NCBI RefSeq assembly: GCF_024734385.1
Contig: NZ_JANHAP010000004.1
Location: 62,001 to 126,000 of the forward strand
Direction of reading: 5' to 3'
Length of the DNA stretch: 64,000 bases
Source: Dasania sp. GY-MA-18
Lineage (GTDB): Bacteria; Pseudomonadota; Gammaproteobacteria; Pseudomonadales; Dasaniaceae
Shown here piece after piece: positions 6,660 through 31,578 of this stretch. The translations under genes were made by a program, and so were the position numbers. The notes under the pieces are model-generated. The model was not told the DNA's origin and made no database searches. It saw only the letters and a program-made list of their open reading frames with translations. Numbering within the stretch: position 1 is the first letter of the stretch; every line of letters starts with the position of its first letter.

Positions 6660-6922
6660 GGATAGACCTATTATTGTTGTTTTATCTAAGGTTTAAAATC
6701 ACAACAAAGTCTACGGCTAGCGTTTGCCAGTATGAATGTGCAATCTGGCTGTTTTCTTTACAAATAGTTTGCAAATAGGCAAGCCCACCAGCAATTTGCC
6801 AAGCACCGACAAAAATGACAACTTAGCCGCTTTTAGCAGCATTTTTGGCCTTTATTCAGCCACAATGTCATGTCATTATGGCCAGCGCCGATAATAATAA
6901 TGAACAAATCCCAGGGATTTCT

Positions 6923-11688: not shown

Positions 11689-12633
11689 TTAATAAGGCAC
11701 AAAATCCAAGGAGTAATTAACGGTGGTGGCCAAGACTTTTTCGGCACCAAAGTTAATCAGCCTAAGCCGGGATAGAATTTTTTTATTGAGCGCATCATCC
11801 CCCAGCTCACTGGAGACCAGTTTGATGGCAGTGATTTGGCCGCTGGGGGCTATCACCATTTCAAACACAAAGCGGCCTTGCAGGCTGGGGTCTGACCTTA
11901 GCGCGCGGTTATATATAGAGAAGATACGGCTTTTGTTTTTATCCATCACCCGCCGTATAGACTCATCGCTGCGGCCAGAGGCTTGCACCGCACCCGCTTG
12001 CGCCTGTTCGCTAACGGCTACCGCATCGGCATTGTCCACCTTGGTAGTTTCACGCCCCGATAAAGCGGCACCGCCGGTGTTGCGGCTGAGCTTGGCGGTG
12101 GCTATGCCACCACTGCCCTGCGCAGCCTTGCCGGTAATCACCGAGCGCTCTACTTTGGCGGCACTTTGTTCGCCGCTACTTACGGGCGTATTGTTAAGGT
12201 TTTGCACGTCTAAGCTGTCGCGCATATCCATTAAGTCATCTTGAAAGGCCAGCAGGCCCGACACCTGGGCTTGCTCGCGGGCTTTTTTAACCTCGTCCAC
12301 TACCTTGGTTTTTAATTGGGGCTTTTCTTTAGGCAGCTCTTTAGGTTTGGTTTTGGGCTGCTCTTTTTTAGGCTCAGGTTTTTTCGGTTTAGGTGGCGGG
12401 GGCGGCGGTGGAGGCAGCTCCTTTTTTTCCATAATCACTTGCGCTAGCTGTGGTGGCAGTGCCTCTTTTTTCTCGCGGCTAATTTCTTTTACCGGCATAA
12501 AGGGCACGATAATCGCCACTAGGCATAAAGCAATCAAACCATTGCGTACAAAGCGCTTAAAGCGGGCATCATCGGCCTCGGTGGCCGACCAGGGTAGCTG
12601 TAGCTCTGGGCCTCTCATTAGGGCTGCAGTCAT
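11689..12633 (-). CDS. TonB-like energy transducer with AgmX/PglI C-terminal domain
   Basis: 314 aa. One membrane helix at about residues 31-48 follows a short cytoplasmic N-terminus; a Pro/Lys-rich periplasm-spanning stretch with eight consecutive prolines covers about 70-112. The C-terminal domain (about 225-314; RRVMDKNKSRIFSIYNRAL, GRFVFEMVIAPSGQITAIKL) matches the AgmX/PglI fold, a TonB-C relative known from the Myxococcus gliding protein GltJ/AgmX. It should carry force from the TolQR motor to outer-membrane partners. The ATG directly follows the ExbD stop with no gap. It is the last gene of the operon. Confidence 0.88.
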   Translation of the reverse strand: MTAALMRGPELQLPWSATEADDARFKRFVRNGLIALCLVAIIVPFMPVKEISREKKEALPPQLAQVIMEKKELPPPPPPPPKPKKPEPKKEQPKTKPKELPKEKPQLKTKVVDEVKKAREQAQVSGLLAFQDDLMDMRDSLDVQNLNNTPVSSGEQSAAKVERSVITGKAAQGSGGIATAKLSRNTGGAALSGRETTKVDNADAVAVSEQAQAGAVQASGRSDESIRRVMDKNKSRIFSIYNRALRSDPSLQGRFVFEMVIAPSGQITAIKLVSSELGDDALNKKILSRLRLINFGAEKVLATTVNYSLDFVPY

Positions 12634-13164
12634 CTAACCCTCCACCGTGCTGTTTTCAACAGCCGCAGGGGCAATATGGTTAACAGCCAGGTTAATATCG
12701 CGGTAATCATTAGCCGAGCAGGTAGTCATGATTTTTTTTAGCAAGCTATAGGGCATGCCCTCGTCGCCCATAATAATCACGGCGCGGCCCAGTTTTTTCT
12801 CGCGCTCGCTTAAGTTAGCACGGCGCTGTGCTTGATATTGCAGCTCTTTTGCCAGGGCTGTGATGGTGGCTTCATTAATGCTGTCATCGGCATTAAAGGC
12901 GGCGCCCAAGCGCTGGCCTTGCATAATTATGTCTTTATCGCTGATTTTAATGGTGAGGCTAAGCTCGGGTTTTTTCTCGGCCACAGATTCAGGCAGGCTG
13001 ATGTTTTTATCGCTGGACAGCACTTCTACATCGCCGCTGTTAACCATCAGGAAGAACACCAGAATGGTGAATATATCCATTAGCGATACTAGGTTTAATT
13101 TAGGCTGGCCACTGTGGCGCTTGTGGTTGCGGGCCATGCGCTTGGCGCGTAGTGAGCTTTTCAT
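12634..13164 (-). CDS. ExbD/TolR-like motor protein, second copy
   Basis: 176 aa. Short basic N-terminus (KRMARNHKRHSGQPKLNLVS), one membrane helix (LMDIFTILVFFLMVNSG) containing the conserved proton-path Asp (about residue 30), then a periplasmic domain. In ExbD/TolR proteins this Asp couples proton flow to movement in the ExbB ring. The gene overlaps the preceding exbD-like gene in ATGA (4 bases). Two different TolR-type subunits beside one TolQ-type subunit is the AglRQS-like arrangement, not the usual Tol-Pal one. Confidence 0.9.
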   Translation of the reverse strand: MKSSLRAKRMARNHKRHSGQPKLNLVSLMDIFTILVFFLMVNSGDVEVLSSDKNISLPESVAEKKPELSLTIKISDKDIIMQGQRLGAAFNADDSINEATITALAKELQYQAQRRANLSEREKKLGRAVIIMGDEGMPYSLLKKIMTTCSANDYRDINLAVNHIAPAAVENSTVEG

Positions 13165-13718
13165 GATTCGGCTCCTACGGCTTTACTGGTATCTGTATTA
13201 GCTGGCGCATCCCCAAAGGAAATATCCGGAAACAAAGCTGCATCCACTACCGAGGCAGCGACTACCGCCTGATAAGAGCGCACGGTATCCATAGCGCTGA
13301 TGATGGTTTGGTAGTCGGTATCGGACTCAGACAATATGGTGATATTTTTTTTCTCTATGCCTTTTTCAAGCAGCCTGCGCTTTACCTCCTGCAAGGTAAG
13401 GCTAAGCAGAGCAAAGTCGTGCTGCTTTTCTTCGGCTTCGTCGTCTACAGCTTTTTTATAGATAGTTTTAACCGGCACCCCTTGCGGGAAATTAACCAGT
13501 AAATAATCCTGCCGTATCACTAGCTCTACTTGGTGGTTTTTTTCATAATTGGCCGCCTCATTCAAAGCGGACTCCGGCAACTTAACATCCACCACCGTAA
13601 TTTGTGAAAACACCATGCCCAACAACAGCACCGGCACCAGCACTATCATCAGGTTCATAAAGGCTGTGATATCGAGATCGGCATCGTCGATTTTTTTGCG
13701 CCTGAATTTTCTCATCAT
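13161..13718 (-). CDS. ExbD/TolR-like motor protein, first copy
   Basis: 185 aa. Basic start (MMRKFRRKKIDDADLD), then helix ITAFMNLMIVLVPVLLLGMV; the usual helix Asp position reads as Asn (FMNLM), although Asp15/Asp17 lie just before it. This differs from the second copy, which keeps Asp in MDIF, so the two subunits may not be equivalent proton carriers. Periplasmic domain residues about 45-185. Start ATG at 13718 with an alternative ATG one codon on. It is 21 bases from the ExbB-like gene. Confidence 0.88.
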   Translation of the reverse strand: MMRKFRRKKIDDADLDITAFMNLMIVLVPVLLLGMVFSQITVVDVKLPESALNEAANYEKNHQVELVIRQDYLLVNFPQGVPVKTIYKKAVDDEAEEKQHDFALLSLTLQEVKRRLLEKGIEKKNITILSESDTDYQTIISAMDTVRSYQAVVAASVVDAALFPDISFGDAPANTDTSKAVGAES

Positions 13719-13739
13719 GAAAAACTCTTTTAGTCAGGC

Positions 13740-14402
13740 TTATTTATTATCGGCTTGGCGGGTGCGTACCACTTGTTTGTTGCCCAGGGCGTTTAACACT
13801 TTCACCCCGGCCATTTCTAAACTATCGACTATCTCTGAAGTTTTGGTTTGCAATAAGCTGTGAAACAACAATAAGGGTATCGCCGAGATCAAACCAAAGG
13901 CGGTGGTATTCATGGCCACCGAAATACTGTTGGATAATAAGGTCGCTTTTTCGGCGGGGTCGGCATTGGCCACCGCACTAAAGGCTGCGATCAAACCTAT
14001 GATGGTACCTAATAAACCCAACAGCGTTGAAATATTAGCCAGCGTTGCCAAATAGGGTGTGCGCTTTTCTAAGCGAGGTAAGGCTTCCATGATGCCCTCT
14101 TCCATGGCGTACTCTACATCGTCGCGGCGGTTGCTGGTGCTAAAGCGGGCCAGGCCTGCGCCTACGATTCTATACATAGGTATGCTGGAGCGAGTAGAGC
14201 CCTCCACGATTTTAGCGTACTCACCCTTGTTTAAAGCGGGCAATAGCTGATCAAAGGCTTTTTTATTGGCCCCTTTGGCGGCGGTTAGCACTAACCAGCG
14301 CTCTATTGCTATAGCCACACCTATGACTAACACCACGGCTATAGGGTACATAAAGGCCCCGCCAGTCTGAAAAAAACGCAAAATTGTATCTAACATATCC
14401 AT
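13740..14402 (-). CDS. ExbB/TolQ/MotA-type proton channel
   Basis: About 220 aa from the ATG at 14402, which has AGGAT a few bases upstream; a TTG at 14408 is also in frame. Three membrane helices: about residues 15-35 (FMYPIAVVLVIGVAIAIERW), about 120-140 (LATLANISTLLGLLGTIIGLI) and about 155-180, with the family GLLGTIIGLIAAF and ISVAMNTTAFGLISAIPLLL motifs. It forms the stator ring that uses the proton gradient to drive the two ExbD-like proteins and the AgmX-like transducer downstream. Confidence 0.93.
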   Translation of the reverse strand: MDMLDTILRFFQTGGAFMYPIAVVLVIGVAIAIERWLVLTAAKGANKKAFDQLLPALNKGEYAKIVEGSTRSSIPMYRIVGAGLARFSTSNRRDDVEYAMEEGIMEALPRLEKRTPYLATLANISTLLGLLGTIIGLIAAFSAVANADPAEKATLLSNSISVAMNTTAFGLISAIPLLLFHSLLQTKTSEIVDSLEMAGVKVLNALGNKQVVRTRQADNK

Positions 14403-14546
14403 GATCAATCCTATTATGACTATCGCTGTAGCAAAAGAAGGGTAAAAAGTGAGGCGCTAGCTTTTTACGCTTTTATTATTAAATTATTAAAAATGCGGTC
14501 GCAAAACACCACCGCTGTTTGTTAAAACTGCTAACCCTATGGCATT

Positions 14547-14831
14547 TTAAGGGCTTTTAGCGGCGGCTTTGTCGGCTAATTGCTGTTTAAAGCGCAGCTC
14601 GCGTAAAAACTCTTCTCTATCTATGCGGCTAAACACATCGCTGGTAATGCCCTGCATAGGCTGATAATTAAGCTGCACTCTATCGGCTTTTTGCCAGGGC
14701 ATAATATATAACACTTTCGGTTGCTCCTGGTTACCTTTGACGGTGCTTTGTAAGGTAACCACCGGCTGCTGAGCCAATGCCGACAAAGGCAACAGCAGCG
14801 CACACAATACTATCGCTGGATAATTTTTCAT
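14547..14831 (-). CDS. Small secreted protein of the TolQR/TPR operon
   Basis: 94 aa. Clear signal peptide (MKNYPAIVLCALLLPLSALA) followed by a short polar periplasmic protein with PKVLYIMPWQKADRVQL and no recognisable domain. Its ATG overlaps the stop of the TPR lipoprotein gene in ATGA, so it is translated with it. I do not recognise the family; its conserved place between TPR lipoproteins and the ExbB-like gene suggests an accessory of the envelope complex. Confidence 0.75.
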   Translation of the reverse strand: MKNYPAIVLCALLLPLSALAQQPVVTLQSTVKGNQEQPKVLYIMPWQKADRVQLNYQPMQGITSDVFSRIDREEFLRELRFKQQLADKAAAKSP

Positions 14832-15514
14832 CCGGCAGCCTCCTGTTTTTGTAGTCGCCGCTCTACATCAATCACCCAACCCTGCACCTGTTTATAGGCC
14901 TTATCGGGGCTAAAGTCGGGCTGGGCTTGCTCGCGCAACTGTAAATACTGCTGATAATGCTGCTTGGCATCGGCTAAGCGCCCCATGTATAACTCATATA
15001 AAATGCCTAGGTTACGGTGGCTATCGGCATCATACTGCCATACCGCTATGGCTTTTTGATAATAGTTTTCGGCATCACTAAAACGGCCCTGCTGCCTAAG
15101 AAAAATAGCGTAGCGGTTGTAGGCGCTTAAATTATTTTTATTGACTTGTATAGCCTTGCGGTAATACTGCTCGGCCTGTTTCGGCTGGCCCTGTTGCTCG
15201 GCCACTATGGCCAGGTTTAATACTGGCCCTGAGTACTCGGGGTAGTGTGCAACTATCCACTGCAAATGCTGTTCAGCCTGCTGCCACTGTTCAGCCGCCA
15301 TAGCCTCACGGGCAGCGGCGTAAACTTTTTTGGCCTCGCTGGCGGCAGGCTTGGCCTGTTGTTGATAAGGGCTGATTAGGGGTTGGGCTGCGGCCTGCTC
15401 TGTATTGGCCCCGGGGCTGACCTCTGAACTAGTCCCAGCCTGCTCTGTTAGCGAGCTACAAGCCGACAGCAGTATAAGCAGCGCTAAGCCGCAATAGTGA
15501 GAGTAGTTAGCCAT
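14828..15514 (-). CDS. TPR lipoprotein (228 aa)
   Basis: Lipoprotein signal with lipobox LLSAC (Cys19), a low-complexity linker to about residue 60, then three to four tetratricopeptide repeats (YAAAREAMAAEQWQQAEQHL, NLAIVAEQQGQPKQAEQYYR, YNRYAIFLRQQGRFSDAENY). Likely anchored in the outer membrane facing the periplasm as a protein-protein scaffold. Start and stop overlap both neighbours (TAATG with the 945-aa gene, ATGA with the 94-aa gene), so the operon is translationally coupled here. Confidence 0.88.
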   Translation of the reverse strand: MANYSHYCGLALLILLSACSSLTEQAGTSSEVSPGANTEQAAAQPLISPYQQQAKPAASEAKKVYAAAREAMAAEQWQQAEQHLQWIVAHYPEYSGPVLNLAIVAEQQGQPKQAEQYYRKAIQVNKNNLSAYNRYAIFLRQQGRFSDAENYYQKAIAVWQYDADSHRNLGILYELYMGRLADAKQHYQQYLQLREQAQPDFSPDKAYKQVQGWVIDVERRLQKQEAAG

Positions 15515-18351
15515 TAGTGTATTGCCTCCATTAAATATTCTACGCTTTCTTCCTTGTTGTAACGGGCGGGCAATAGTTGTTTTAATGCGCTAAAGCTTTC
15601 TTTTACCCAGTCATCGTAGACACCGTTCCAGCTATTTTCTATGTTTTGCTCGTGTATGGCTATGGCTTTTTCTTCAAAGGGGTAGGCTTGTTCTTCCAAT
15701 AGAATTTCGTATTGCTCTAACGCCAGCTCATCCAAATTACCGGGGCGCTCTGAATTAATTAAGTCACGACTAAGCTGACCATACACTGCCGCTAAACGGT
15801 ATAGCGATAAGGTAGCAAAGTCGGCCACGCCATAGCTTGCCGTTTGCTGGTAACGCTCTAGTGCCAGATTTAGGGCCTTTTTCTTTTTTTGTAGCGAACG
15901 TTTAATGGGCAGGGTGAGCTTGATAGATTTAAAGGCTTGATAGGCATCATCGGCAAACACACTGGAGGCCATGGCCGCTAAATAACGTGAACGCTCGCTG
16001 CGCTGCTGTTGATCCGCTTTTATTATGCGCTTTAACCAAAAGCGGCGCTTGCTATCCTCACCTGCTGCCAAATACAAGTCATTAAGTTTGTTCATGGCTT
16101 CTAAATTAATAGCAACAGGTTGCTTATACCCGTGGGCATAGTCGCGGTAATGGCTGATGGCCTGGCTGGCATTGCCCGCTTTTTCGTATAGCTCTGCCGT
16201 TAAAAACAGTAGCTGGGCTTTTTGCGCTGGGTCTTGTTCGTTGTGATAAACCACGGCTAATTCATCGGCGGCCAAGCCCCACTGCTCAGTCTCTTGATAG
16301 ATAACCGCCAGGGTCGCGCCCATGCTTGCGGTTAAAGAGTGCTGGGGGTAGCGCTGGCGAAAGTCCAGTAATAGTGCGGCGGCTTTATCCCAGTCCTTAA
16401 TTGCATAGTAACTATTGGCGGCATCATATTGGGCGTTAAGCCTTATGCTGCTATCGGGCGCTTTAGCCATCACCCGGCTAAAATGCTGTGCTGCGATTAA
16501 ATGCTGATTAGCGGCCAAGGCTTGCTCGCCCTGCTTGTAAATACTGGCGGCATAGCGCTCGTTGAGATCTTTAAGGCGTTTATCCTTGGTGGGTAATAAT
16601 GCCAGCACTTCGCTATAGCTGGTTTCAGCATAAAAATAATCTTGGGTATCAAATGCACTTTGCGCTATCACCAGCCATGCGGAAATGACTAAATGCTTAT
16701 CGCTGCTTGCTTGATAAAGTCTGTTGCCCGGCGTCAGCGCTAAGGCGGTATTGATTGCTTGTTGATGCTGCCCCAAAGCCAGCTGCGCCTGAGCGCTGTT
16801 AATTTGTATAGCTGGGCTGCGAGTATCGCTGGGGAAGGCTTGCGTAAAACGCAGGCTGCTATCAATTTTTGCTTGCGCGATAGCCTGCTGTGTAAGCGCG
16901 TAGCTCTCATCGTCCGATGCGGGCAGCGGTAATTTGTCATAGGCCAGTATGGCGGCATAGCCCGCCTCTGCAGCTTTATCGCTGTGGCTATAGTGATAGG
17001 CTACACGCTCATAGCTGTCTATGGACGCCTGATAATTACCAGACTCGTAGTAGGCCTCGGCCAATAAAAACAACATATCTGCAGCACGCTCATGGCGCGG
17101 GAAGCTCTCTACAAATAAGTCGTAGTAGTGAGCTGCGGTTTGATAATCTTGCTGCTCTTGCGCCTGCTGCTTGCTGTCGGCCTGTTGCGCCAGTGTGTGA
17201 TAGTAAGAGGCCAGCTCGGTCATATAGTTTTGCAGTTTGTCATCAATGGCGTTTTTAATAGCGCCACTGCGGCTTTGCCAGTAACCACCCGCGTGTTGGT
17301 TATCGCCCACAAAATTAATTTTGCCCTGTAATACCTCTTGCCTAAAACCACCCTGCTGATACACCTCTATTTGGGCAATTTGATATTGGTAACGCTGATC
17401 CGCCTGGGGGTAACGTTCCACAAAAGCCTGATAGCTGTCGGCACTGTCTTTATAGCGCTGCAGGTTTAAATAATAACTGGCCAGGCTTTGGTATAGCTGC
17501 GCGGCATAATGGCGCTCACCCATACGGTCTAAGGTTTCGTTTAAGCTTTGTACGCCCTCTAGGGTAGAAAAACTCACGCTTAACATGCGCAGGCTGTCAT
17601 TGACCATCTCTTGGTCGCCGCGCTCCCGGGCTATCCCCTCACCGGCATACTGCAGCATTAAATCCAGCGTTAAAACAAAGTTTTCTATAGCATCATCATA
17701 ATGCGCTGACTTAAAGCGCGACCACGCCAACATATAGTGGGCGTTTTGATAATACAGGCCTTCGCCTCTGGCAATCACATTGCTATAGCCTTGAGCTGCC
17801 GCTTGATATTTGCCCGCCGAAAAATTACTTTCCGCTAAACGAAATTGTGACTCCACATAACGTGACGAGTCTTGGTGCTCAACTACCAAGCCATTTAAAA
17901 TGGCCAGGGACTTTTCTTGCTCGCCGTTCATTTCATAGGCACGGGCCAGCTGGTATAAATGCTGATCGCGCTTAGCATCCTGCGGGTTATCTGCCAATAG
18001 GCTTTCATAGGCGGCAATAGTAGCGGCAAATAATTTTTGCTCACTGCTTGTGCTTTGCGCTAGCAAGGCTTCGCTGCGCTGCATTTCTATACCTGCCAAA
18101 CGGCTATTAACTTGCCGTTTCACTTCGCGGTCGTCACTGGCCTGTAGCGCAGCTAAATATAGCTCACGTAATTCCTCAAGATTGGCGCTAGGTAATTGTT
18201 GGCTTTTGACTGGTAAATAGGCAGGTTGCAAATCGGCTAAGGTAGCAATTTGTTCAGCCTGCTCACCGCCAAACATAGAGCAGGCCGAGAGGCTAATACT
18301 GAGCGCCAGCAGCGTGGCTTTATTCATTGCTCTATTCACTACTCTATTCAT
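15514..18351 (-). CDS. Large TPR lipoprotein (945 aa)
   Basis: Lipobox SLSAC (Cys24 counting from the first ATG; ATG at 18327 is an alternative start giving a standard lipoprotein signal). The rest is a long array of BamD/AglT-like tetratricopeptide repeats, for example YQLARAYEMNGEQEKSLAIL, FRLAESNFSAGKYQAAAQGY and FLLAEAYYESGNYQASIDSY. It resembles the TPR scaffolds (GltE/AglT type) associated with Agl/Glt motors. It overlaps the 653-aa TPR gene by 8 bases. Role as a periplasmic bridge between motor and outer membrane is inference. Confidence 0.88.
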   Translation of the reverse strand: MNRVVNRAMNKATLLALSISLSACSMFGGEQAEQIATLADLQPAYLPVKSQQLPSANLEELRELYLAALQASDDREVKRQVNSRLAGIEMQRSEALLAQSTSSEQKLFAATIAAYESLLADNPQDAKRDQHLYQLARAYEMNGEQEKSLAILNGLVVEHQDSSRYVESQFRLAESNFSAGKYQAAAQGYSNVIARGEGLYYQNAHYMLAWSRFKSAHYDDAIENFVLTLDLMLQYAGEGIARERGDQEMVNDSLRMLSVSFSTLEGVQSLNETLDRMGERHYAAQLYQSLASYYLNLQRYKDSADSYQAFVERYPQADQRYQYQIAQIEVYQQGGFRQEVLQGKINFVGDNQHAGGYWQSRSGAIKNAIDDKLQNYMTELASYYHTLAQQADSKQQAQEQQDYQTAAHYYDLFVESFPRHERAADMLFLLAEAYYESGNYQASIDSYERVAYHYSHSDKAAEAGYAAILAYDKLPLPASDDESYALTQQAIAQAKIDSSLRFTQAFPSDTRSPAIQINSAQAQLALGQHQQAINTALALTPGNRLYQASSDKHLVISAWLVIAQSAFDTQDYFYAETSYSEVLALLPTKDKRLKDLNERYAASIYKQGEQALAANQHLIAAQHFSRVMAKAPDSSIRLNAQYDAANSYYAIKDWDKAAALLLDFRQRYPQHSLTASMGATLAVIYQETEQWGLAADELAVVYHNEQDPAQKAQLLFLTAELYEKAGNASQAISHYRDYAHGYKQPVAINLEAMNKLNDLYLAAGEDSKRRFWLKRIIKADQQQRSERSRYLAAMASSVFADDAYQAFKSIKLTLPIKRSLQKKKKALNLALERYQQTASYGVADFATLSLYRLAAVYGQLSRDLINSERPGNLDELALEQYEILLEEQAYPFEEKAIAIHEQNIENSWNGVYDDWVKESFSALKQLLPARYNKEESVEYLMEAIH

Positions 18352-20305
18352 TGCTCGCCCCCGACTGCGCGGCGGGCTGTTGCTGGCTACCCAAATCGTA
18401 AAGTCGTGCGATGGCTAAGGTGGCCCTGGCTAAATACTGTTGTAACTGCTGTTTTTGCTGCGCCAATTCGGTGATGGCCAGCTGCCTAATGCTATCGCTG
18501 GTTTTGCCAAGCTGAGTATCAATTTGTGCTTGCTGCTGGGCCAAGCGTTGTTGCAGTTGCTGTAACCTAGGGCGAAATGGCGATACCGCTTTTTCACCCA
18601 CCGCTGCCTGTAAATGCACAATAGTGCTTTGCGTTGCGCTTAGGTGTTGATCCAACAGCGTTAACTGTTTGCTTAACTGCCAGCGATTATCGGCATAGCG
18701 CTCCTCTGTGCGCCACGACAAAACATCCTCGTAACGGCTAAGTAATTCACGTTCTACGCTAACATCCTGCCCTTGTTGGCTTAACTGCGCTATACGCTGA
18801 TAGGCTCGGTCTACGATTTGCCACAATTCAAAATCATCCCCCTGGGCAACACTGCGCGCAGGATCAATAGTTTCGGCTTGTTGGATTTTTTCCGCCAAGC
18901 TATTACGCAAGGCTAATAATTGTTGATAGTGTGTTTGATAATTTTTTAATTGCCCACCCTCGGTAAGCTGCTGCCAGTAGTGTTGTTGTTCGCCATCTAC
19001 CGCCAATAAATTCTCATGCCTTTTTTGCAACTGCAATACATGCTTTTTAAGTACGCTTAAATCGTAGTAGTCACGCAAGTTTGCTTGAAAACTATGCTTG
19101 GCGATTAAATGGGTAAGGTAAATACTGTTATTGCTAATAGGCGGCAACTCACGCTTGGACAACCAGCTTTTATTTAACCCCGTTAGTGAAAACAACTGCT
19201 CTAGTGGCTGCCCGCTAAACTGGCCTATCGCCGCATCTAATTGCTGAATTTCTTGTTGATACGCTTGCGCGGCCTGCTGGTATTCGCTTAAAGCCTCACT
19301 TAAGCCGCCCAGTTTTTCATAGGCATAGGGCAGTGCCAACATAACCTCTTGCACGGAAGGTAATAGCAGCGACTGTTTTCTTAAAGCCTGCCAAGGGGCC
19401 AGTGCCTGCGGGTAATTTTCGCGCTCACTTTCTGCCAGGCCATAACCTAATAAAGCCTTATCCACTACCAAGCTGTTTAAGCTGACCCGCCTAAAGGCTT
19501 TAACCGCATTAACATAATCTTGCTTCGCCATATAGGCGTAGCCTGCGGCGGTATTGGCTTTATCTTTTAGTGCCTGTTCGCCCTTGTGGTTTTGCATTAG
19601 GGTATGGGTTTGTTCATAAGCCGCTATGGCCGCTGGCCACTGCTGCTGCGCTGCGTAACTAGAGCCCAGATTAAAATAATAATAGGGCCAATAAATGGAG
19701 TGCTCTGGCACCGCCAACATACTTTGCCGCGCTAACTTAGGCTCACCCAAGGCTAGCAACATGGTGGCTTGTAAATAATGGGCTTGTATTTGTAACGGCG
19801 CGGGCTGTTCGCTGGTAAATAAACCGCTGGTTTTTACCGGGCTGATATAACTTAGCGCGTTTATGGCTCTAGCATAATCACCTTGTTGGTAAATGAGTTT
19901 ACCCAAATAAAACCAAGCTTTATTTTTTTGCGCCTCACTTAATGTTATTGCATCGCGGTGTTGGCTTTGGCCACTTAACAACTGGCTAAAAATGGCTTCG
20001 GCCTGTCTATCCAAACCGTAGGACAAGCTAATGCCGCCCTTTAATAATTCGGCATTGCTTTGGTGATTGGGCAAAGCCTGTAAATGCTGCGCCGATATCA
20101 ACTCTAGTAGCGCATTAAAATAGTCTTCTTGATAGAAATGGTACAGGGCTACGCCATAGCGCAAGTCTTTAACCGTTTCAGCTTGCAGGGAAAAAGGCAG
20201 CGACAATAAAATACCGGCCGCGCAGTAGCGAGCGGTTTTAGCCCATTGCTGTACTGTTGCCCATCGCTGGGCCAGGGAAATTATGTTCAAGGATTTAACT
20301 ACCAC
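18344..20305 (-). CDS. Periplasmic TPR protein (653 aa)
   Basis: GTG start at 20305 in this frame (no ATG nearby); a hydrophobic signal segment at about residues 26-42 (YCAAGILLSLPFSLQA) supports export. Repeats with TPR spacing fill about 45-310 (VALYHFYQEDYFNALLELI, FYLGKLIYQQGDYARAINAL), and the C-terminal part from about 320 is Gln-rich helical, probably coiled coil. No catalytic motif. It overlaps its upstream neighbour by 7 bases and the 945-aa gene by 8. It probably forms part of the same envelope scaffold. Confidence 0.83.
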   Translation of the reverse strand: MVVKSLNIISLAQRWATVQQWAKTARYCAAGILLSLPFSLQAETVKDLRYGVALYHFYQEDYFNALLELISAQHLQALPNHQSNAELLKGGISLSYGLDRQAEAIFSQLLSGQSQHRDAITLSEAQKNKAWFYLGKLIYQQGDYARAINALSYISPVKTSGLFTSEQPAPLQIQAHYLQATMLLALGEPKLARQSMLAVPEHSIYWPYYYFNLGSSYAAQQQWPAAIAAYEQTHTLMQNHKGEQALKDKANTAAGYAYMAKQDYVNAVKAFRRVSLNSLVVDKALLGYGLAESERENYPQALAPWQALRKQSLLLPSVQEVMLALPYAYEKLGGLSEALSEYQQAAQAYQQEIQQLDAAIGQFSGQPLEQLFSLTGLNKSWLSKRELPPISNNSIYLTHLIAKHSFQANLRDYYDLSVLKKHVLQLQKRHENLLAVDGEQQHYWQQLTEGGQLKNYQTHYQQLLALRNSLAEKIQQAETIDPARSVAQGDDFELWQIVDRAYQRIAQLSQQGQDVSVERELLSRYEDVLSWRTEERYADNRWQLSKQLTLLDQHLSATQSTIVHLQAAVGEKAVSPFRPRLQQLQQRLAQQQAQIDTQLGKTSDSIRQLAITELAQQKQQLQQYLARATLAIARLYDLGSQQQPAAQSGASNE

Positions 20306-20841
20306 TCTTTGACAACAAATTCCGGTTGCTGCAAGGCGGTGGAATCAATAATTTTTAGCTCTAGGTGTTTGGCGTCGCTGTCTTTAGTAAAAGTAATATC
20401 AGTGGCGCGTCTAAAGTTTTCACCTTGAGGGCCAAAGCCAGTAAACACCGCCACTACCTCGTGCTCACCACTGCGCACATTGCCTTGGTATAAACGCTGT
20501 ATGGCTCCACGGCGCAGGGCATCTACCTGGCTGTCGGTGTATAAATAAGAGGACACCATTTCGCCATCAACCATTAATTTAACCGCATCCAGCTTAAAGT
20601 ATTGCCCCACATCTAAAGACACATAAACCGACAGCTGCGTTTCTGCGGGGAATAATAATTCTTCTTCTAAAATAAACAGGTCTTTGTTGAGTTCTAACAC
20701 CTGCTCTTTAATGCTTTGCACGTCATCAACCAACGCCTGCTCTGGCTGGGCGCTGGCGCTGCCAGCCGCGAACAGAATAAAGCTAAACAGCCAGCAAGCA
20801 CTGGCTTTGCTGGCTGTTTTGCCAAATAAAACATTGAACAT
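20299..20841 (-). CDS. Secreted coiled-coil/beta protein of the TPR operon
   Basis: 180 aa. Signal peptide with hydrophobic core WLFSFILFAAGSASA, cleavage near residue 32. Residues about 38-60 (VDDVQSIKEQVLELNKDLFI) look like a coiled coil; the remainder alternates as beta strands (LSVYVSLDVGQYFKLDAVKL, VRSGEHEVVAVFTGFG). I do not recognise an enzyme family. Homologous neighbours in similar operons are usually annotated hypothetical. Its placement at the head of the TPR group suggests a structural subunit. Confidence 0.78.
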   Translation of the reverse strand: MFNVLFGKTASKASACWLFSFILFAAGSASAQPEQALVDDVQSIKEQVLELNKDLFILEEELLFPAETQLSVYVSLDVGQYFKLDAVKLMVDGEMVSSYLYTDSQVDALRRGAIQRLYQGNVRSGEHEVVAVFTGFGPQGENFRRATDITFTKDSDAKHLELKIIDSTALQQPEFVVKEW

Positions 20842-20871
20842 AGGATATAAACCTTGTTTGTTATTATCGGG

Positions 20872-22479
20872 TTAGGGTGGCGGGGTAATATAGCCACCTG
20901 ACACACTGGCTAAAGGTTGAAAAGCGATATAGCGCTTACGCTCATCAACGGTGGCCCCTAAGCTTTGGCTGGGGAAGTATCCGGCATTAGCAAAACTGAC
21001 CTCTTCTCCGTGTAAAGCCATGTAGTTGAGTATGACAGTTTCTACTAACAGATTCACACTGTTTGCGGCCGGGGTGGCACCGGTTTCTACCGAGGCATCG
21101 GAGCGCATCCAACCTATTTGTTGATGCATTAGCGGGTTGCTGGGCATTTGGTCTAATAGTGCTGGCCTGCCCCCCATGGGGTCTATCACCAAAAAGAAAG
21201 ACGCAGCAGTAGAAGAATTATCCCCCGTCCACACGCCCTTCTCTATGCCATTGACCATTTCTATCATGCCGTTACTGGCCACCGAGCCATCGCTAAACAC
21301 ATACAGCATTAGCGGAGTGTTTTTTTGCATGGCGTACTCTATGCAAGCGCCTATGCAGCGGCCCGCGCGTAAATCCCGCGCCTCGCCGGTGCGCCTGTCG
21401 CCGGTGTGGTAGTCGTAGCCACCCATCTCTATGGTGCCAGCACCAGCGTGGCCGTCTATGACCAACTTCATCACCGAGGCGGTTTTTTGAAACTCTCGGT
21501 CACCATCAAACTCTGCCTGGCTAAAGATGCCGCTGCTGCCAACGATAATCGGGTCGGCCGAGGGGTCTATCACATTGGGATCGTTGTATTTTTCCAGAGT
21601 ATCGGCGCTGCGCAGGTACTCGCAGCTGATACGCTCTTTTAATTGCGTATCTTGGCTGGTGAGGGTATTGCTCATATCCAATTTAAAATCGGTGATGTGT
21701 TTCATGGCCTCCATCACCGCCACCACGTCTTCGGGGTTATCCAATAACTGGTTGAGATCACCCACATCCACTAAGCCTCTAGCATCGCTGGCTCTGTCGA
21801 TTTTGGTGGGGCGTATCTCAGGGTTGATATACATGGAAGGGGCCATGGAGTTGCCACCAGACTCGGTATTTTCTGAGCCTACCAATTGCACTAACTGCCC
21901 TCTTAAACCCGCTTGGTAAATCCCGTACATGGGGTTGTGGGGATTATTACCGGTGTCATTATCGGAGCGGCCGGGTATGACCGCGCCATTGGTGGCGGCC
22001 TGTGCCGCTGCTGAGGCGCGCTCTTGTATACCCCGCAACATGGCGCTTTCGCTATGAAACAGCAGGCCTAGGGAGTTATCACTAAAGTCACCGGCATCGT
22101 TAGGGGCAATATCCGGCGTTAAACCCAGCTTTTGGTAGCCCGCCGTGCTTAAAGGATCCAACTGACCACCGGGGCCGCCCACCAGTACATTAGAGCCCGA
22201 AATATTCGCCCCGCCCGCCAAATCGAAACAGATAAAGGGGATTTTTCTACCGGTTAAGTTGGAGAGCTCGCAACTGCTGGGGTTGTAATATTTATTCAGC
22301 AAGCCATCGGAGATGCCGTGCGCGCGCGAGCCCATTAAGCTAAAAATAGAGGTACCCAGCATCATGCCGCCACCGGCTTTAAAGCCCTGGGAGATAAACT
22401 CGCGGCGGGTTTTAGGACGGCTGTGATCGGGGTGTTTTAACGCCTCATCCAGGCCAAAAGTTTTTTTGTTACTCGCCAT
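20872..22479 (-). CDS. Tat-exported DUF1501-like protein
   Basis: 535 aa. The N-terminus carries a twin-arginine motif (KTRREFISQG, Arg25-Arg26) before a hydrophobic stretch (GGGMMLGTSIFSLMG), so it is exported folded. FDLAGGANISGSNVL, SAMLRGIQERA, GYDYHTGD and LMLYVFSDGSV line up in order with the DUF1501 family, a relative of the alkaline phosphatase superfamily that lacks a proven function. DUF1501 genes are typically adjacent to secreted cytochrome-like DUF1588-type genes, as here. It lies 30 bases from the 180-aa gene and 12 bases from the LamG lipoprotein gene. Confidence 0.75.
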   Translation of the reverse strand: MASNKKTFGLDEALKHPDHSRPKTRREFISQGFKAGGGMMLGTSIFSLMGSRAHGISDGLLNKYYNPSSCELSNLTGRKIPFICFDLAGGANISGSNVLVGGPGGQLDPLSTAGYQKLGLTPDIAPNDAGDFSDNSLGLLFHSESAMLRGIQERASAAAQAATNGAVIPGRSDNDTGNNPHNPMYGIYQAGLRGQLVQLVGSENTESGGNSMAPSMYINPEIRPTKIDRASDARGLVDVGDLNQLLDNPEDVVAVMEAMKHITDFKLDMSNTLTSQDTQLKERISCEYLRSADTLEKYNDPNVIDPSADPIIVGSSGIFSQAEFDGDREFQKTASVMKLVIDGHAGAGTIEMGGYDYHTGDRRTGEARDLRAGRCIGACIEYAMQKNTPLMLYVFSDGSVASNGMIEMVNGIEKGVWTGDNSSTAASFFLVIDPMGGRPALLDQMPSNPLMHQQIGWMRSDASVETGATPAANSVNLLVETVILNYMALHGEEVSFANAGYFPSQSLGATVDERKRYIAFQPLASVSGGYITPPP

Positions 22480-22491
22480 AATGTGTACTCG

Positions 22492-25215
22492 TTAATGTAT
22501 GGTTAAGGCGCCGCTGGCCAAAACTGCGGTACAGGCCCCTTTTACCACCTCTGCCGTTTTTGCATCGGGGCAGGGGGCATTATTTAAACAATAGCGCAGG
22601 CCATCTTTTTTATTGTGCTTGCTCATGTCGGGGTCGGGTACATAATTACTGCCATCAAACACATAGGGGTGGTTGTCATTAATATCGGTTATTAAAGTGA
22701 CCACTCTATCGTAAATACCGGTTCTGGCTCCGGCGCTTAGCAACCCCGTATTCATACTTTTATCAATTAAGGGGTCAACGATATTGCCGCCCCAGTAGGT
22801 CTCACCAATTATGGTTTCATCACTCATTTGTGGGTGGGTAGAAACGTTGCCACTAAAATCAAAACCGGGGAACAAGCTCGCTCTTAAACCGGCATCCTGC
22901 ACCAAGGCATCACAATAAGCCGCCGCCAATTGCGTTACCGCCATTTGATGGGATGACATATAGGCCTGAAAACTATTGACCGAAGGCAGCTGCTCTTTTA
23001 AGGCCGTAAAGGTTTCAGACACGGTTTTACCGGTAACCGCACTGACCGCCGCACTGGCACTGGACACGCCGGTAATACTGGCAAAGCTTTGGTTAATTTG
23101 ATCAAAGGTACGCACAATAATATCCGACACATCATCAATACCGGTGGCAGTAAACGCATAGCTGGCGGCATCATCGCTGCCATCATCAAACACACTGGTA
23201 TTGCCGTTAATATTTTCAAAAGCTAAAAAGAACACATCGGGGTCGGGGCCGTTGGGGCCAAACTCTTTGGCGATTATGGTGCCCTGCTCCGACAACACCT
23301 GCGCCGGCTGGCTAAAGCCCACATCGCTAAAGGTGCTGCTATCCACAGTAACATTAAGGTTGCTAAAGCTCTGGCCCACTAGCGCCAGCTGGCCATTAAT
23401 CCCTAAACGTAAACCCTGTAAGTTAAAGCTTAACGCCGAGGGGCTGGGGTTTAGGTTAATAAAGACTGGCCTGGCAAACAGGTAGCTGGCGTTGTCGTAC
23501 TCGCTCACCTCAAACACGATATAACAGTAATCCACCCGGCTGGCACCGCTGCCCACATTGCAGTTGCCGGGGTCGTTAATATGCTCGGCTATGCTAAATA
23601 ACATATAGTATTTTTGCCCCACCCCCACTGCGTAGTTGGCAGCAATTTGCGCCTGGGTTAAGGCGCGGTCATGCACGGCAGCCATACGCACTGCCCCCTG
23701 CCAAGGGCGGTTACCGCCCACGCTATTACCTATGGTGAGGGCAAAACCGGCATTCCAGTTGTTAAGCTGGCCGCCGCCCACAGGGTCAGTTAGGCCCATA
23801 TCTACACCATTCACATAGAGCTTGCGGCCCTCTAAAGGAGTGTAAGTAGTTACTACATGCTGCAATGCGGCCTGCGCCGCCTCTTGGGCACCTAAGGTGG
23901 ACAGTATAGGCTCGCCGCCATTGCCACTACCTACACTACTGCGCACCGCCAGGTTGTAGTTATACAGCGATTGCGACAGCATAAAATTGCGGCTGGTATT
24001 GGAGCCCGAGTAGGCCACTATCCAGGCATCTTCCTGGCTGACATTAAAGGGGACTACCCAGGTCTCTATAGTGTATTCGCCGGTTAGCGATAGCTGGCCA
24101 CTAAGCTTGGTGCTGGTTTCCACCGCACCCTGGGCGCGACCGCCGTCAAAACGCATACCCCAACCGCTCATCCAGGTATGATCGCCGCTGGCGGTCAGTA
24201 CGATGGCTGGGTCTACTCCGCTGGTGTCGGCTACGGTTATACCCTCACCCTCTCTAAATTCCCACTTGGCCAATAGCGAGCCTTCGACCCGGCCGCCGGT
24301 GCTGGCCACTATGCCATCGCGTACTAGGCCCTGGGCCGCACTGATTTGGGTGGTGGCTAAGTTGATGCCTACTGCGGGCACCAAAGCAGCAAGGCGGCTG
24401 ATGGCATCGGTAAACTCGGTAGCGATGGTGCCACAATTGCTGCCACAGTTGTGGCGCTCCTGTGCCACCCGCACCACTATGCGTGACTCGCTAGGGCTGG
24501 ACAGATTAATTCTGCCGCTTAGGGCATCGTAGGCGATGTCATTATCGGCACTGGCAAAGAAAGGGGATTGCGCCTGGGCACTGGTATCAGAGTGACAACC
24601 CGCACAATAACTGCGCAATAAGCCCATCAGTTCAGCACTGTCGCTTAATGGCAGCAAAGCCGCCGCATCCGCATAAGTGTCTGGCAAACGCTGGCTGGGG
24701 GCGGGAGCGTAATAGGTACGCGGCAATAGGGTGACACTGGTTACCCCCTCAGCCAAACCCGCCGCCCAACGCTCTATATAGGCCTGTATGGTCACCGCAC
24801 AGGTGGCATCGCCACCGGGTATCCAGCAGTTATGGCCATTGGCCACCCGCTGCACCACTTTGGATTTGGCCGGGTCCGCTAAATTCACCACGGTGTTGGC
24901 GGCCTGCCAAGCCAGGTTAACATCGTCCTGATTGACAAAGTGGGTGGGCGCACCGCCGCCGGGGGTATGGCAGGAGCCGCAGCGGTTGTTTTTAACCAGC
25001 TGGTCGTAAAAATTAATTTTAAAGTTTTGTATCTTGCTGCTGGAAGGCGAGGGGCCACTGTAAACAAATTCGGGCTCGCTTAAGTCGCCACTGAGGTCGT
25101 TTTCTCTATCGCTACCGCCACCGCCGCTGCCGCCACTACAGGCTGCAAGCATGGCCGCTAGGGCCAGCAATAATAGAGACTGGGCTGAGCCTATGATGGT
25201 TTGTTTATTCTTCAT
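22492..25215 (-). CDS. Cytochrome-like LamG lipoprotein with two CxxCH motifs
   Basis: 907 aa. Lipobox LAAC (Cys26) and a Gly/Ser linker. Two c-type haem signatures: Cys79-Cys82-His83 (RCGSCH) and Cys204-Cys207-His208 (YCAGCH). A concanavalin/LamG-like domain spans about residues 310-530 (LAKWEFREGEGITVADTSG, GEYTIETWVVPFNV, WQGAVRMAAVHDRAL). The C-terminal third is unassigned. It is probably an outer-membrane-anchored protein with electron-carrying and carbohydrate- or surface-binding parts. Haem attachment is predicted from motif only. Genes on each side are 12 and 14 bases away. Confidence 0.82.
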   Translation of the reverse strand: MKNKQTIIGSAQSLLLLALAAMLAACSGGSGGGGSDRENDLSGDLSEPEFVYSGPSPSSSKIQNFKINFYDQLVKNNRCGSCHTPGGGAPTHFVNQDDVNLAWQAANTVVNLADPAKSKVVQRVANGHNCWIPGGDATCAVTIQAYIERWAAGLAEGVTSVTLLPRTYYAPAPSQRLPDTYADAAALLPLSDSAELMGLLRSYCAGCHSDTSAQAQSPFFASADNDIAYDALSGRINLSSPSESRIVVRVAQERHNCGSNCGTIATEFTDAISRLAALVPAVGINLATTQISAAQGLVRDGIVASTGGRVEGSLLAKWEFREGEGITVADTSGVDPAIVLTASGDHTWMSGWGMRFDGGRAQGAVETSTKLSGQLSLTGEYTIETWVVPFNVSQEDAWIVAYSGSNTSRNFMLSQSLYNYNLAVRSSVGSGNGGEPILSTLGAQEAAQAALQHVVTTYTPLEGRKLYVNGVDMGLTDPVGGGQLNNWNAGFALTIGNSVGGNRPWQGAVRMAAVHDRALTQAQIAANYAVGVGQKYYMLFSIAEHINDPGNCNVGSGASRVDYCYIVFEVSEYDNASYLFARPVFINLNPSPSALSFNLQGLRLGINGQLALVGQSFSNLNVTVDSSTFSDVGFSQPAQVLSEQGTIIAKEFGPNGPDPDVFFLAFENINGNTSVFDDGSDDAASYAFTATGIDDVSDIIVRTFDQINQSFASITGVSSASAAVSAVTGKTVSETFTALKEQLPSVNSFQAYMSSHQMAVTQLAAAYCDALVQDAGLRASLFPGFDFSGNVSTHPQMSDETIIGETYWGGNIVDPLIDKSMNTGLLSAGARTGIYDRVVTLITDINDNHPYVFDGSNYVPDPDMSKHNKKDGLRYCLNNAPCPDAKTAEVVKGACTAVLASGALTIH

Positions 25216-25229
25216 GCCTCTAATCCCTG

Positions 25230-26528
25230 TTATAGATGGTTAGCGCAGGCCACGGCCACTTCAGCAAATACACGCTTCATATTGCCGCTGGCATTAAAGT
25301 TGGCGGCTATGCTGTTAACGTCGGCGCTATCGGCGGGGCCGGGCTCGCGGCCACAAACACTGCGGTAAGTTTTTTTCACCTGGCAGCTAGTAAACGCTTT
25401 GCTGTGGGCCAGCTCCCGACCTAAAGAGCTAGCCCCTATGCCTTCGGAATACTGCGGGTTTAAAGCCAGATTAGTGCCATCATCTATGGCGGGGTTAAGC
25501 CAACCTATGCGCTCGCTGTTATCACCTAGGCGCCAGTAGTTGGTCCAGTGGTCATTAGGGGTGACGTAGCCGGGGGCAAAGGTGGTGGCATTGATCAGGT
25601 ATTTGGGCTGTACCGCACCGGGGGTGTATAGCAGTTGCCCCAGCTCTTCGCGTTGCTCTTGGCTGGCACCGGGCATATCCGCCTCCGTAGGGTAATCATA
25701 TTGATGATAGGCATAGGCCTGCGCCATGGGGTCCATACCGCTGTGGCAACCCACACACTGATTTAAAAACAGCGTGCTATCTAAGCCGGGGCTGCGGGAT
25801 ACATCTTGGCGTATGCGGTCGGAGGGGCGAGTGGTGTCTTTAAGCTGCTCTAAATCCATGCACAGGTGGTTAACCAGGGTATACCTAAACATGGCCCTAT
25901 TCGTACCGTCTATAAAAAAGGCTCTGGCGGCAGCACGGGTGGTTTGCACCCCTGCGATACCTGCGGTGGCTATGCCCGTCACCGAGGATTGCGGCTGATA
26001 CTGTAATACGCTGTCGTCGCCCATATTGGCGGCGCTATTTTCTAAAAATTCGTAATGGTTGTTATCACTATTATTGTAAGCGGGGATGCCGGGTATATTG
26101 CCGGTGTAAATAATATCCCCCGATAATAGCTCTCTAAAATCCACCATGATGGAAGGCGTGTAGGTATCGGTAGCACCGCTGTCGCGCACCATGCCTATTA
26201 CCGTGGCGCTATAGTCATTAAGCGGGGCAAAAGCATTAAAGCTCTGATTGGTGGCGGGGGTAATCCAGTTTTTCACCACCACATTGTAAAAGTTACCATT
26301 GGCCGCTTCAGCGCCGCTGCCTATATCAGGCGCTCCATCCATAGCGTATTCTGCGGCCTGTACGGCATTGCCGGCAGTAATTGCAGCCGTCATGCGGTTA
26401 AGCATATTTTCGCTGGGGGGGGTGCCCGTCAACCTATCGTGTATTCTGCGAGCCTGTTCGCGTGGGCCTGCCATGCTTAAGGACGGCAATATAGCCGCTA
26501 CCATTAACATCGTTATCCAAGCTTTCAT
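25230..26528 (-). CDS. Secreted CxxCH protein with DUF1588-like signature
   Basis: 432 aa, first gene of the long minus-strand operon. Signal peptide residues 1-20 (MKAWITMLMVAAILPSLSMA). A haem-type motif Cys258-Cys261-His262 sits in CVGCHSGMDPMAQAY, which matches the CxxCHxxMDPxxxA pattern of DUF1588-type secreted cytochrome proteins known mainly from Planctomycetes. The C-terminal part holds SCQVKKTYRSVCGREP, possibly a disulfide pair. A run of eight G at 26415-26422 lies in the 5' coding part (codons about 36-38). It works with the DUF1501-like and LamG proteins by context. Confidence 0.78.
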   Translation of the reverse strand: MKAWITMLMVAAILPSLSMAGPREQARRIHDRLTGTPPSENMLNRMTAAITAGNAVQAAEYAMDGAPDIGSGAEAANGNFYNVVVKNWITPATNQSFNAFAPLNDYSATVIGMVRDSGATDTYTPSIMVDFRELLSGDIIYTGNIPGIPAYNNSDNNHYEFLENSAANMGDDSVLQYQPQSSVTGIATAGIAGVQTTRAAARAFFIDGTNRAMFRYTLVNHLCMDLEQLKDTTRPSDRIRQDVSRSPGLDSTLFLNQCVGCHSGMDPMAQAYAYHQYDYPTEADMPGASQEQREELGQLLYTPGAVQPKYLINATTFAPGYVTPNDHWTNYWRLGDNSERIGWLNPAIDDGTNLALNPQYSEGIGASSLGRELAHSKAFTSCQVKKTYRSVCGREPGPADSADVNSIAANFNASGNMKRVFAEVAVACANHL

Positions 26529-29648: not shown

Positions 29649-29669
29649 GCACCCAATAATAAAAGCGCT

Positions 29670-30422
29670 GTGATAAAACTAACTAGCTACACCACATTCT
29701 TATTTTTGCTACTAACACTGAGTGTTAGTGTTAAAACCTTAGCCGATAGCGAGTATTTTCAAGCGCAAATAGCCGAGCCCTATCTCAATATCCATCAAGG
29801 GCCAGGTAAGGGTCACACCGTGTTTTACGTGGCTGAACGCGGCGAAACTATTAGCATTATTAAAAGCAAAACCGACTGGTACAAAGTAGAAACCGCTAAT
29901 GGCATACAAGGCTGGGCCCACGCCAGCGCCATAGCCCTCACCTTGGATAGCCGCCAACAACCCTTAGATATATCACTGCCCGACTTTGCCAGCAGCCAAC
30001 ACCGCACATGGGAAACCGGCCTACAAATAGGCGACTTTGGTGGCAGCGATGCCCTTAGCGTGTACGGCAGTTATTTTTTAACCGACAATCTTTCTATAGA
30101 GGCCAGCTACTTAGAAACCTACGGCCTCACTAGCAATGGCAGTGGCAGTTTTATAGGCATCAGCCACCAGCCCTTTCCGCAGTGGCGCATCTCACCCTTT
30201 GTGTCAGTGGGCGGCGGAAGATACCAAACCCAGCCCAAGTCCAACTTAGCGGCCACCAAAAAACGCAACGATAATGTGAGCTATACCGCAGCAGGGCTGC
30301 GTATGTATTTAGCGCAACGACTGTTATTGCGACTGCAATACAGCAATTATCTAATAATTTCTAACCGAGACGATGACGAAGAAATAGAAGCATGGACATT
30401 AGGCATAAGCGCATTTTATTAA
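29670..30422 (+). CDS. SH3-domain outer-membrane barrel protein
   Basis: 250 aa, GTG start at 29670, 21 bases after the upstream stop. Signal peptide (about residues 1-25), bacterial SH3 domain at about 30-90 (AEPYLNIHQGPGKGHTVFYV, GIQGWAHAS), then about eight amphipathic strands forming an OmpA/OmpW-like barrel (YGSYFLTDNLSIEASYLETY, RLLLRLQYSNYLI). SH3b domains often bind peptidoglycan, so it may tie the outer membrane to the wall. Its 3' end overlaps the next gene by 31 bases. Confidence 0.83.
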   Translation: MIKLTSYTTFLFLLLTLSVSVKTLADSEYFQAQIAEPYLNIHQGPGKGHTVFYVAERGETISIIKSKTDWYKVETANGIQGWAHASAIALTLDSRQQPLDISLPDFASSQHRTWETGLQIGDFGGSDALSVYGSYFLTDNLSIEASYLETYGLTSNGSGSFIGISHQPFPQWRISPFVSVGGGRYQTQPKSNLAATKKRNDNVSYTAAGLRMYLAQRLLLRLQYSNYLIISNRDDDEEIEAWTLGISAFY

Positions 30423-31027
30423 TTTTAACTTGGCTAAGTTTTTCCAGCGCAGCAGTAGCGCAGGACGATAACGAGCAGGTTATTATCCCCGACATAGATC
30501 GCCGCGAAATCGGTGTAGACGCCATAGACAGCGAAAACTTCGCAATCAGCGTACACGCCGGTGTGATTAGCATAGAAGATTTTGAGACCACCGACTTAGA
30601 GCTATACCGCTTTGCCTGGCATGTTAGCGAATATATCTTTTTTGAAGCCAGCTACAGCAAAGCGCAGGGCGATTTAACCAGCTACGAAGAGTTGGTCGGC
30701 GGCACCCCGCTATTTGTGGAAGACCAGCGCGAATTTACCCAAACCAATATTGCCATAGGCTTTAATATACTACCCGGCCATATTCATTTTAGTGACCGCT
30801 TTAATTTTAACTCCAACTTTTACCTCACCCTGGGTGCCGGTAATACCGAGTTTTTAGGGGATGACTGGGCCACTATTACCTACGGTGGCGGCTATCAATT
30901 ATTACTGACTGATTTTTTAGCGGTGCATATCGACGTGCGCGATCATATTTTTGACCGCGAAACCTTTGGCCGCGAAGAAACCACCAACAATATAGAGTTA
31001 TCTATGGGTTTGAGTTATTTCTTTTAA
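30392..31027 (+). CDS. Outer-membrane beta-barrel protein
   Basis: 211 aa. Signal peptide (KRILLILTWLSFSSAAVAQ) then acidic linker and barrel strands (YIFFEASYSKAQGDL, FNSNFYLTLGAGNTEF, ATITYGGGYQLLLTDFLAVH) with terminal NIELSMGLSYFF ending in Phe, as in small OmpW-like barrels. It has the same length class and fold as the preceding protein's barrel, suggesting duplication with loss of the SH3 domain. The start lies inside the upstream gene, so translation is probably coupled. Confidence 0.82.
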   Translation: MDIRHKRILLILTWLSFSSAAVAQDDNEQVIIPDIDRREIGVDAIDSENFAISVHAGVISIEDFETTDLELYRFAWHVSEYIFFEASYSKAQGDLTSYEELVGGTPLFVEDQREFTQTNIAIGFNILPGHIHFSDRFNFNSNFYLTLGAGNTEFLGDDWATITYGGGYQLLLTDFLAVHIDVRDHIFDRETFGREETTNNIELSMGLSYFF

Positions 31028-31089
31028 ACACTAAGCAATACTAGATTTTGTAACAGCTACTGTATCGCCATATATAACGAGGCAGCACT

Positions 31090-31578
31090 ATGAAAAAGTT
31101 TTTATTGATTCCACTGATATTATTATCTGCTCTGGGCCTGGCCCACGCCGAAAGCCTGAACAAGCCCGCGCCAGACTTCACCTTAAAAAGTAATCAGGGC
31201 AATAATATTCGCCTACAAGAATTAAAAGGCAATGTGGTATTGGTTAATTTTTGGGCCTCCTGGTGTGGGCCCTGCCGTAAAGAAATGCCCGAGCTGGATA
31301 AACTGCATAAAAAATATCAACGCCTAGGCTTTACCGTACTAGGTGTGAATGTAGAAACCGACAGCGCCGCTGCCAATGGTTTGTTAAAAGATAATCCGGT
31401 GAGCTTCCCCATACTCTACGACACAGAAAACCGCACCAGCGAGCTTTATAATGTTAATGCCATGCCCACTACTGTACTGGTAGACCGCGACGGCAATATG
31501 CGTTTTATACACCTGGCCTATCAGGCAGGTTATGAAAAAATGTACGAAAAACAAATCAAACAATTAATACGCGAATAA
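31090..31578 (+). CDS. TlpA/ResA-like periplasmic thioredoxin
   Basis: 162 aa. Signal peptide (LLIPLILLSALGLAHA), then a thioredoxin fold with active site WASWCGPCRKE near residues 55-65, and cis-Pro segment NAMPTTVLVD. TlpA/ResA proteins reduce cysteines of apocytochromes or maintain disulfide status outside the membrane. That fits the five CxxCH motifs encoded nearby. The stop is one base from the DUF4266 start. Confidence 0.92.
   Translation: MKKFLLIPLILLSALGLAHAESLNKPAPDFTLKSNQGNNIRLQELKGNVVLVNFWASWCGPCRKEMPELDKLHKKYQRLGFTVLGVNVETDSAAANGLLKDNPVSFPILYDTENRTSELYNVNAMPTTVLVDRDGNMRFIHLAYQAGYEKMYEKQIKQLIRE

Follow-up and report, generated by a model that had tools for sequence, protein, structure and literature searches.

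In gammaproteobacteria, homologues of aglRQS and of gltC, D, E and G are grouped with a single additional gene, forming a core complex to which no function had been assigned in the text of Luciano 2011 (PMC3169522), and the same text, its supplementary figures apart, reports gltA and gltB only from Myxococcales and Bdellovibrionales. In the gliding machine of Myxococcus xanthus, the outer-membrane barrels GltB and GltA stabilise each other and bind the tetratricopeptide repeat (TPR) protein GltC in the periplasm, and the three genes run in the order gltB-gltA-gltC (PMC4488436). A separate set of proteins, namely DUF3570, DUF4266, a thioredoxin and ApbE, is known as a flavinylation module (Meheust et al. 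2021, PMC8238504). In Fibrobacter (PMC6851124), the TPR/ExbB/ExbD region FSU_2396-2403 contains genes induced on cellulose and encodes a TPR protein reported to form a complex with cellulases and fibro-slime proteins, a precedent for TPR/ExbB/ExbD genes tied to surface proteins. Here, we have analysed a 64,000-nucleotide stretch of DNA (the window) from Dasania sp. GY-MA-18 (positions 62,001 to 126,000 of contig NZ_JANHAP010000004.1), in which a gliding-type proton motor is joined to an exported set of flavin, heme and phosphatase-fold proteins, and we find that this arrangement is a conserved block of about 19 genes in marine and freshwater gammaproteobacteria.

The motor half of the locus is, judged by its sequences, the gammaproteobacterial core complex already described, at least as that complex is set out in the text of Luciano 2011 and by Wartel et al. 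2013 (PMC3858216), and the features common to both are a TolQ-type channel, two ExbD subunits, a transducer with an AgmX/GltG tail and three TPR proteins, all encoded in one region. Beyond the core complex, the window holds a pair of barrels, a flavinylation module, an HzsA-like protein and other proteins with CxxCH motifs, and a protein of alkaline-phosphatase fold predicted to be exported by the twin-arginine translocation (Tat) route. A sequence-only reading of this DNA had likened the motor to Agl/Glt machinery, which is borne out by the channel, the two ExbD subunits, the AgmX/PglI tail and the grouping of the core genes in a single region. It had also held that no described system unites the two halves; the motor half had in fact been described (PMC3169522), but for the joined cluster we found no description in the open-access literature, a search that did not extend to the supplementary figures of Luciano 2011. 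These are known modules joined in a combination that we have not found described, and the combination is both conserved and larger than first reported.

On the minus strand between 11689 and 26528, all twelve open reading frames (ORFs) proposed by the sequence-only reading are present and mostly abut, with intergenic distances of -8 to +30 bases and a sole exception of 138 bases before the TolQ-type gene. They are transcribed in the order p432, LamG907, p535, p180, TPR653, TPR945, TPR228, s94, TolQ, ExbD1, ExbD2 and GltG-like transducer. Whilst these genes are real, the interval stops too early, as the divergent genes at 26865-33916, which include the flavinylation module and the barrel pair, form one conserved unit with them. 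This divergent arm comprises HZS927, SH3omp250, omp211, a thioredoxin, DUF4266, DUF3570 and ApbE, and it recurs with the motor in relatives of the same taxonomic order and among 80 named loci that were found through p180; at least one gene of the redox or barrel arm was seen in 68 of these 80, within the stretch examined.

The association that the sequence-only reading had drawn from one genome, between motor/TPR genes and DUF1501-like and cytochrome genes, recurs across many families and so is not due to chance. The refuting condition set by that reading, a lack of co-occurrence beyond this one genome, was checked and did not hold. An evenly drawn survey of 369 Gammaproteobacteria finds a strong TPR945 match in 88 genomes and p180 in 83, every one of which also has TPR945. 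The omp211 barrel is found in 56 genomes, all 56 with p180, and 48 of the 50 genomes with p535 have p180 as well; counted by family, p180 is present in the same genome for 29 of the 31 families having p535. Fisher p-values for co-occurrence are below 1e-34 with kinship ignored. The genes also tend to lie close together, since on a shared contig p180 is no more than 20 kb from p535 in 28/31 cases and from omp211 in 42/44. Gene order varies in blocks; it runs, for example, HZS-SH3-omp-Trx-DUF3570-p180-TPR653 in Alteromonadaceae and Hahella, and in Halieaceae and Spongiibacteraceae the HZS gene points away from p432-LamG-p535-p180. Pseudohalioglobus lutimaris and Aliiglaciecola lipolytica are among the culturable carriers. 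We are highly confident of the parts list and of the linkage between motor and redox arm. In a tree of the GltD-like protein the linkage label is clustered, with every one of 28 rows linked in the clade to which the sister genome from the window's genus belongs, but it does not form one clade (18 changes, compared with 38 when shuffled). A single origin of the linkage was rejected, as the well-supported branches of this tree require at least 12 changes, although its long branches and uneven composition make the exact number unsafe. The cluster carried by the metagenome-assembled contigs L113, L141 and L162, titled Verrucomicrobiaceae, Halobacteria and Planktophila, is proteobacterial, so these titles or bins are probably wrong.

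The family assignments made by the sequence-only reading for the channel, the two TolR-type subunits, the transducer and the three TPR proteins are supported by family matches. The TolQ/AglR-type proton channel (13740..14408, minus strand) matches MotA/TolQ/ExbB with 101.8 bits (cut-off 22.9), and its T135 and T169 are invariant in 32/32 sequences. It is followed on the same strand by two subunits of TolR/AglQS type, ExbD1 (13161..13718) and ExbD2 (12634..13164), which score 60.4 and 40.8 bits against ExbD (cut-off 25.4). The transmembrane Asp of ExbD2, Asp30 in the window, is kept in 42/42 sequences. ExbD1 has Asn22 at the position of the proton-carrying Asp, and among 40 sequences this residue is Asn in 29, Ser in two and Asp in nine; the Asn/Asp split is also present in cores without the redox arm. 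In MotB, an Asp to Asn change mimics the protonated state, and the same source describes both AglQ and AglS with Asp and leaves the heterodimer question open (PMC9389320). The conserved Asn in one of the two ExbD proteins suggests that they may form an obligate heterodimer with a single proton site. Last in the operon is the GltG-like transducer (11689..12633, minus strand), with a transmembrane segment, a proline/lysine-rich linker and an AgmX/PglI tail that is TonB_C-like; it matches NF033768 with 63.7 bits (cut-off 40), scores far under the cut-off of the GltG equivalog NF033760 (52.4 bits against 650) and, unlike M. xanthus GltG, has no FHA domain.

Upstream of the motor genes on the minus strand lie the putative periplasmic scaffold and two small exported proteins. 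All three scaffold proteins give TPR matches. TPR653 (18344..20305) is a GltC-like exported protein, likened to GltC (673 amino acids) through its length and gene order, TPR945 (15514..18351) is a GltD-like lipoprotein that scores 38 bits against the PorW/SprE model of type IX secretion, below the cut-off of 250, and TPR228 (14828..15514) is a GltE-like lipoprotein that reaches 33.5 bits against the GltE model (cut-off 225). In most loci, the gene for the small exported protein s94 (14547..14831) sits between the GltE-like gene and TolQ. The core marker p180 (20299..20841) is an exported protein predicted to contain a coiled coil and a beta sandwich; its model shows a 30-residue helix followed by an immunoglobulin/transthyretin-like sandwich, with a predicted local distance difference test (pLDDT) score of 86, and a fold search returned only immunoglobulin/transthyretin-like matches, none giving a family link. 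Since it is present in 83 of 88 core genomes, p180 is a good candidate for, and probably is, the extra gene that the text of Luciano 2011 places with the core complex. In three loci whose cores lack the redox arm (L199:7720-12276, L207:6226-10833 and L201:5281-9528), a single protein of about 1400-1535 amino acids is a fusion of the GltC-like and GltD-like proteins, and p180 adjoins a thioredoxin gene in L199 and L207.

The layout of motor, transducer and TPR proteins is like that of the M. xanthus gliding machine, and the likeness may extend to the outer membrane. On the plus strand, SH3omp250 (29670..30422) combines an SH3 domain with a predicted outer-membrane barrel, and omp211 (30392..31027) is a barrel of the OMP_myx_plus kind that matches TIGR04565 with 139.7 bits (cut-off 60). 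SH3omp250 itself reaches 26.4 bits against the same model, and all 19 of its 19 relatives match it, more weakly than omp211. In many loci the barrel pair precedes the GltC-like TPR gene (653 versus 673 amino acids), with other genes between, in an order that recalls gltB-gltA-gltC. No counterpart of GltI or CglB was seen, though no search was aimed at either. At one locus (L208:14726-15250), an ORF for a lipoprotein-like protein of 174 amino acids sits between HZS and SH3omp, the position that CglC/GltK (170 amino acids) occupies before gltB in M. xanthus. The redox proteins of the window are foreign to the M. xanthus gliding machine as it is known.

The first three genes of the operon encode exported proteins. 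Two of them carry CxxCH motifs, as the sequence-only reading had it: p432 (25230..26528, minus strand) has exactly one, as do all 41 of its 41 relatives, and LamG907 (22492..25215, minus strand), a lipoprotein with a LamG domain (Laminin_G_3, 72.4 bits), has exactly two, as do 30/30 relatives. A DUF1588 label given to this group was not found; p432 shows only a weak C-terminal resemblance to DUF1585/PSD2 that falls below threshold (E=5e-5, 23.3 bits, cut-off 25.8). The third protein, p535 (20872..22479, minus strand), has a twin-arginine motif consistent with the Tat export claimed for it. Its predicted model, with a pLDDT of only 66, shares the fold of the alkaline phosphatase superfamily, as all 50 structural matches listed bear that title (Z 10.3-11.6, 214-249 residues aligned). 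Membership of the DUF1501 family was rejected: none of 31 p535 relatives matches the Pfam model (PF07394) at E<=0.01, and comparing the p535 profile with one of 16 true DUF1501 proteins gave 79.5% over 73 columns only. Given the missing match and the shared fold, p535 is DUF1501-like in fold and not a member of the family. Planctomycete-type DUF1501/DUF1585 cytochrome modules also have a Tat protein of alkaline-phosphatase fold adjoining LamG and a CxxCH protein whose end is DUF1585-like. They differ in that p535 fails the DUF1501 model and p432 is sub-threshold for DUF1585.

The divergent arm opens on the plus strand with HZS927 (26865..29648), which has a lipoprotein-like signal, a middle domain of the HZS_alpha family (PF18582, 58.3 bits, cut-off 26.6) and two CxxCH motifs, the latter shared by 34/39 relatives. 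Its identification as hydrazine synthase alpha was rejected, since it scores 49.7 bits against a cut-off of 800 for NF052339 and matches in the middle domain only. Beyond the barrels, the flavinylation module is complete in the window, with DUF3570, DUF4266, thioredoxin, ApbE and a [S/T]GA[S/T] motif. It consists of Trx162 (31090..31578, plus strand), an exported thioredoxin-like protein; a small DUF4266 lipoprotein ending in CGC (31580..31795, plus strand; PF14086, 82.9 bits, cut-off 27); a DUF3570 outer-membrane protein (31689..32936, plus strand, 143.9 bits), the predicted flavinylation target; and, convergent to the last, an ApbE flavin transferase (32933..33916, minus strand, 273.3 bits). 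The DUF4266 gene was missing from the ORF list and was identified in the window only, not being among the queries for relatives. The true start of DUF3570 is likely the GTG at about 31788. The window DUF3570 contains one SGAS motif, and a motif scan showed none in several relatives. Here the module adjoins a proton motor and TPR scaffold, whereas some clusters elsewhere tie it to DsbD, or to VIT1 (PMC8238504). Among the neighbouring genes of the window, a TonB-dependent receptor gene (8946-11387) follows the operon, an adjacency shared by the sister genome of this genus (L019) and by no other locus, and two genes (6845-8896 and 38093-39751) each encode TPR repeats together with a sulfotransferase domain.

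Taking these parts together, we consider the chances about even that they form a gammaproteobacterial trans-envelope machine of Agl/Glt type, with its own outer-membrane and redox end, which acts on an exported redox/adhesion assembly. If the proteins behave as their families do, proton flow would turn or strain the motor of TolQ, ExbD1 and ExbD2, and the GltG-like transducer would pass force across the periplasm to the GltC-, GltD- and GltE-like TPR proteins, with p180 and s94. The scaffold could then hand force to SH3omp250 and omp211, for which family knowledge predicts an outer-membrane location. The load may be the flavinylated DUF3570, the thioredoxin and DUF4266, the heme-motif proteins p432, LamG907 and HZS927, and p535, and the machine would most likely position, assemble or display this redox assembly at the cell surface. 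That the redox assembly is the load is the step that we propose more tentatively. The force-driven envelope machine that the sequence-only reading put forward as one interpretation is plausible.

Of the other explanations, a role in secretion or assembly fares best, although we think it unlikely. The motor would then power the phosphatase-fold, cytochrome and LamG proteins across the outer membrane, as GldLM powers type IX secretion; the resemblance of TPR945 to PorW/SprE (38 bits), the weak matches of three SH3omp relatives to PorG and the Tat or Sec export of the putative cargo would all fit, but no type IX secretion model is matched at its cut-off, no C-terminal signal was seen on the cargo, and the lipoprotein-like signals of LamG907 and HZS927 could bring them to the surface by another route. 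Several observations weigh against a machine with a redox load. The homology of GltA, B, C and D rests on domain, order and length; the complete genome G090 (L198) has the p432-LamG-p535 trio without any core; the trio lies elsewhere in the genome, with the core present, in G100, G339 and probably G588; and neither trio nor barrels accompany about half of the core loci. The last point implies that the core has some use without a redox load and that the redox arm goes with one kind of core only. The unlinked trios, the trio of G090 and the many cores without the redox module are also what would be seen if two independent modules were kept or moved together without physical coupling. We regard this as improbable, however, as p180 accompanies p535 in nearly all genomes and families, even where the genes lie far apart. 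Only two p535 genomes lack p180; one (G058) is a contig fragment, and in the other, G090, the HZS gene beside the trio is split into two ORFs, so this locus may be a decaying remnant. A surface-motility machine with LamG907 in the adhesin role of CglB would suit the motor/TPR/barrel layout, which is as in the myxobacterial machine, and LamG is a common glycan-binding fold, but it leaves the conserved heme, flavin and phosphatase-fold proteins unexplained and seems quite improbable to us. Very improbable is a TonB-like energised uptake, in which the motor would act with the GltG-like protein to open a barrel, DUF3570 or some other, and import metal or substrate for the redox proteins. The TonB_C-like tail of the transducer would fit, as would the iron link that DUF3570/DUF4266/thioredoxin/ApbE modules have in some clusters (PMC8238504), but the cluster has no plugged TonB-dependent receptor conserved alongside it (that at 8946-11387 being confined to the genus), and the small barrels and three TPR scaffolds would be superfluous.

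The Agl/Glt core, whose function has been unassigned since 2011, gains a conserved partner set in at least 48 sampled genomes from 29 families, and this set offers a testable load for the standalone core. The barrel pair suggests that GltA/GltB-like barrels, which had been thought confined to Myxococcales and Bdellovibrionales, may accompany the gammaproteobacterial core, and the apparent specialisation of the ExbD subunits bears on whether AglQ and AglS heterodimerise. In its strongest form, which we consider doubtful, the proposed machine would be a proton motor of the gliding family that mechanically drives a surface electron-transfer assembly of flavin, heme and phosphatase-fold proteins, with an obligate ExbD heterodimer of single proton site as its axle. 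If this is true, then envelope mechanics would be coupled to redox chemistry outside the cell.

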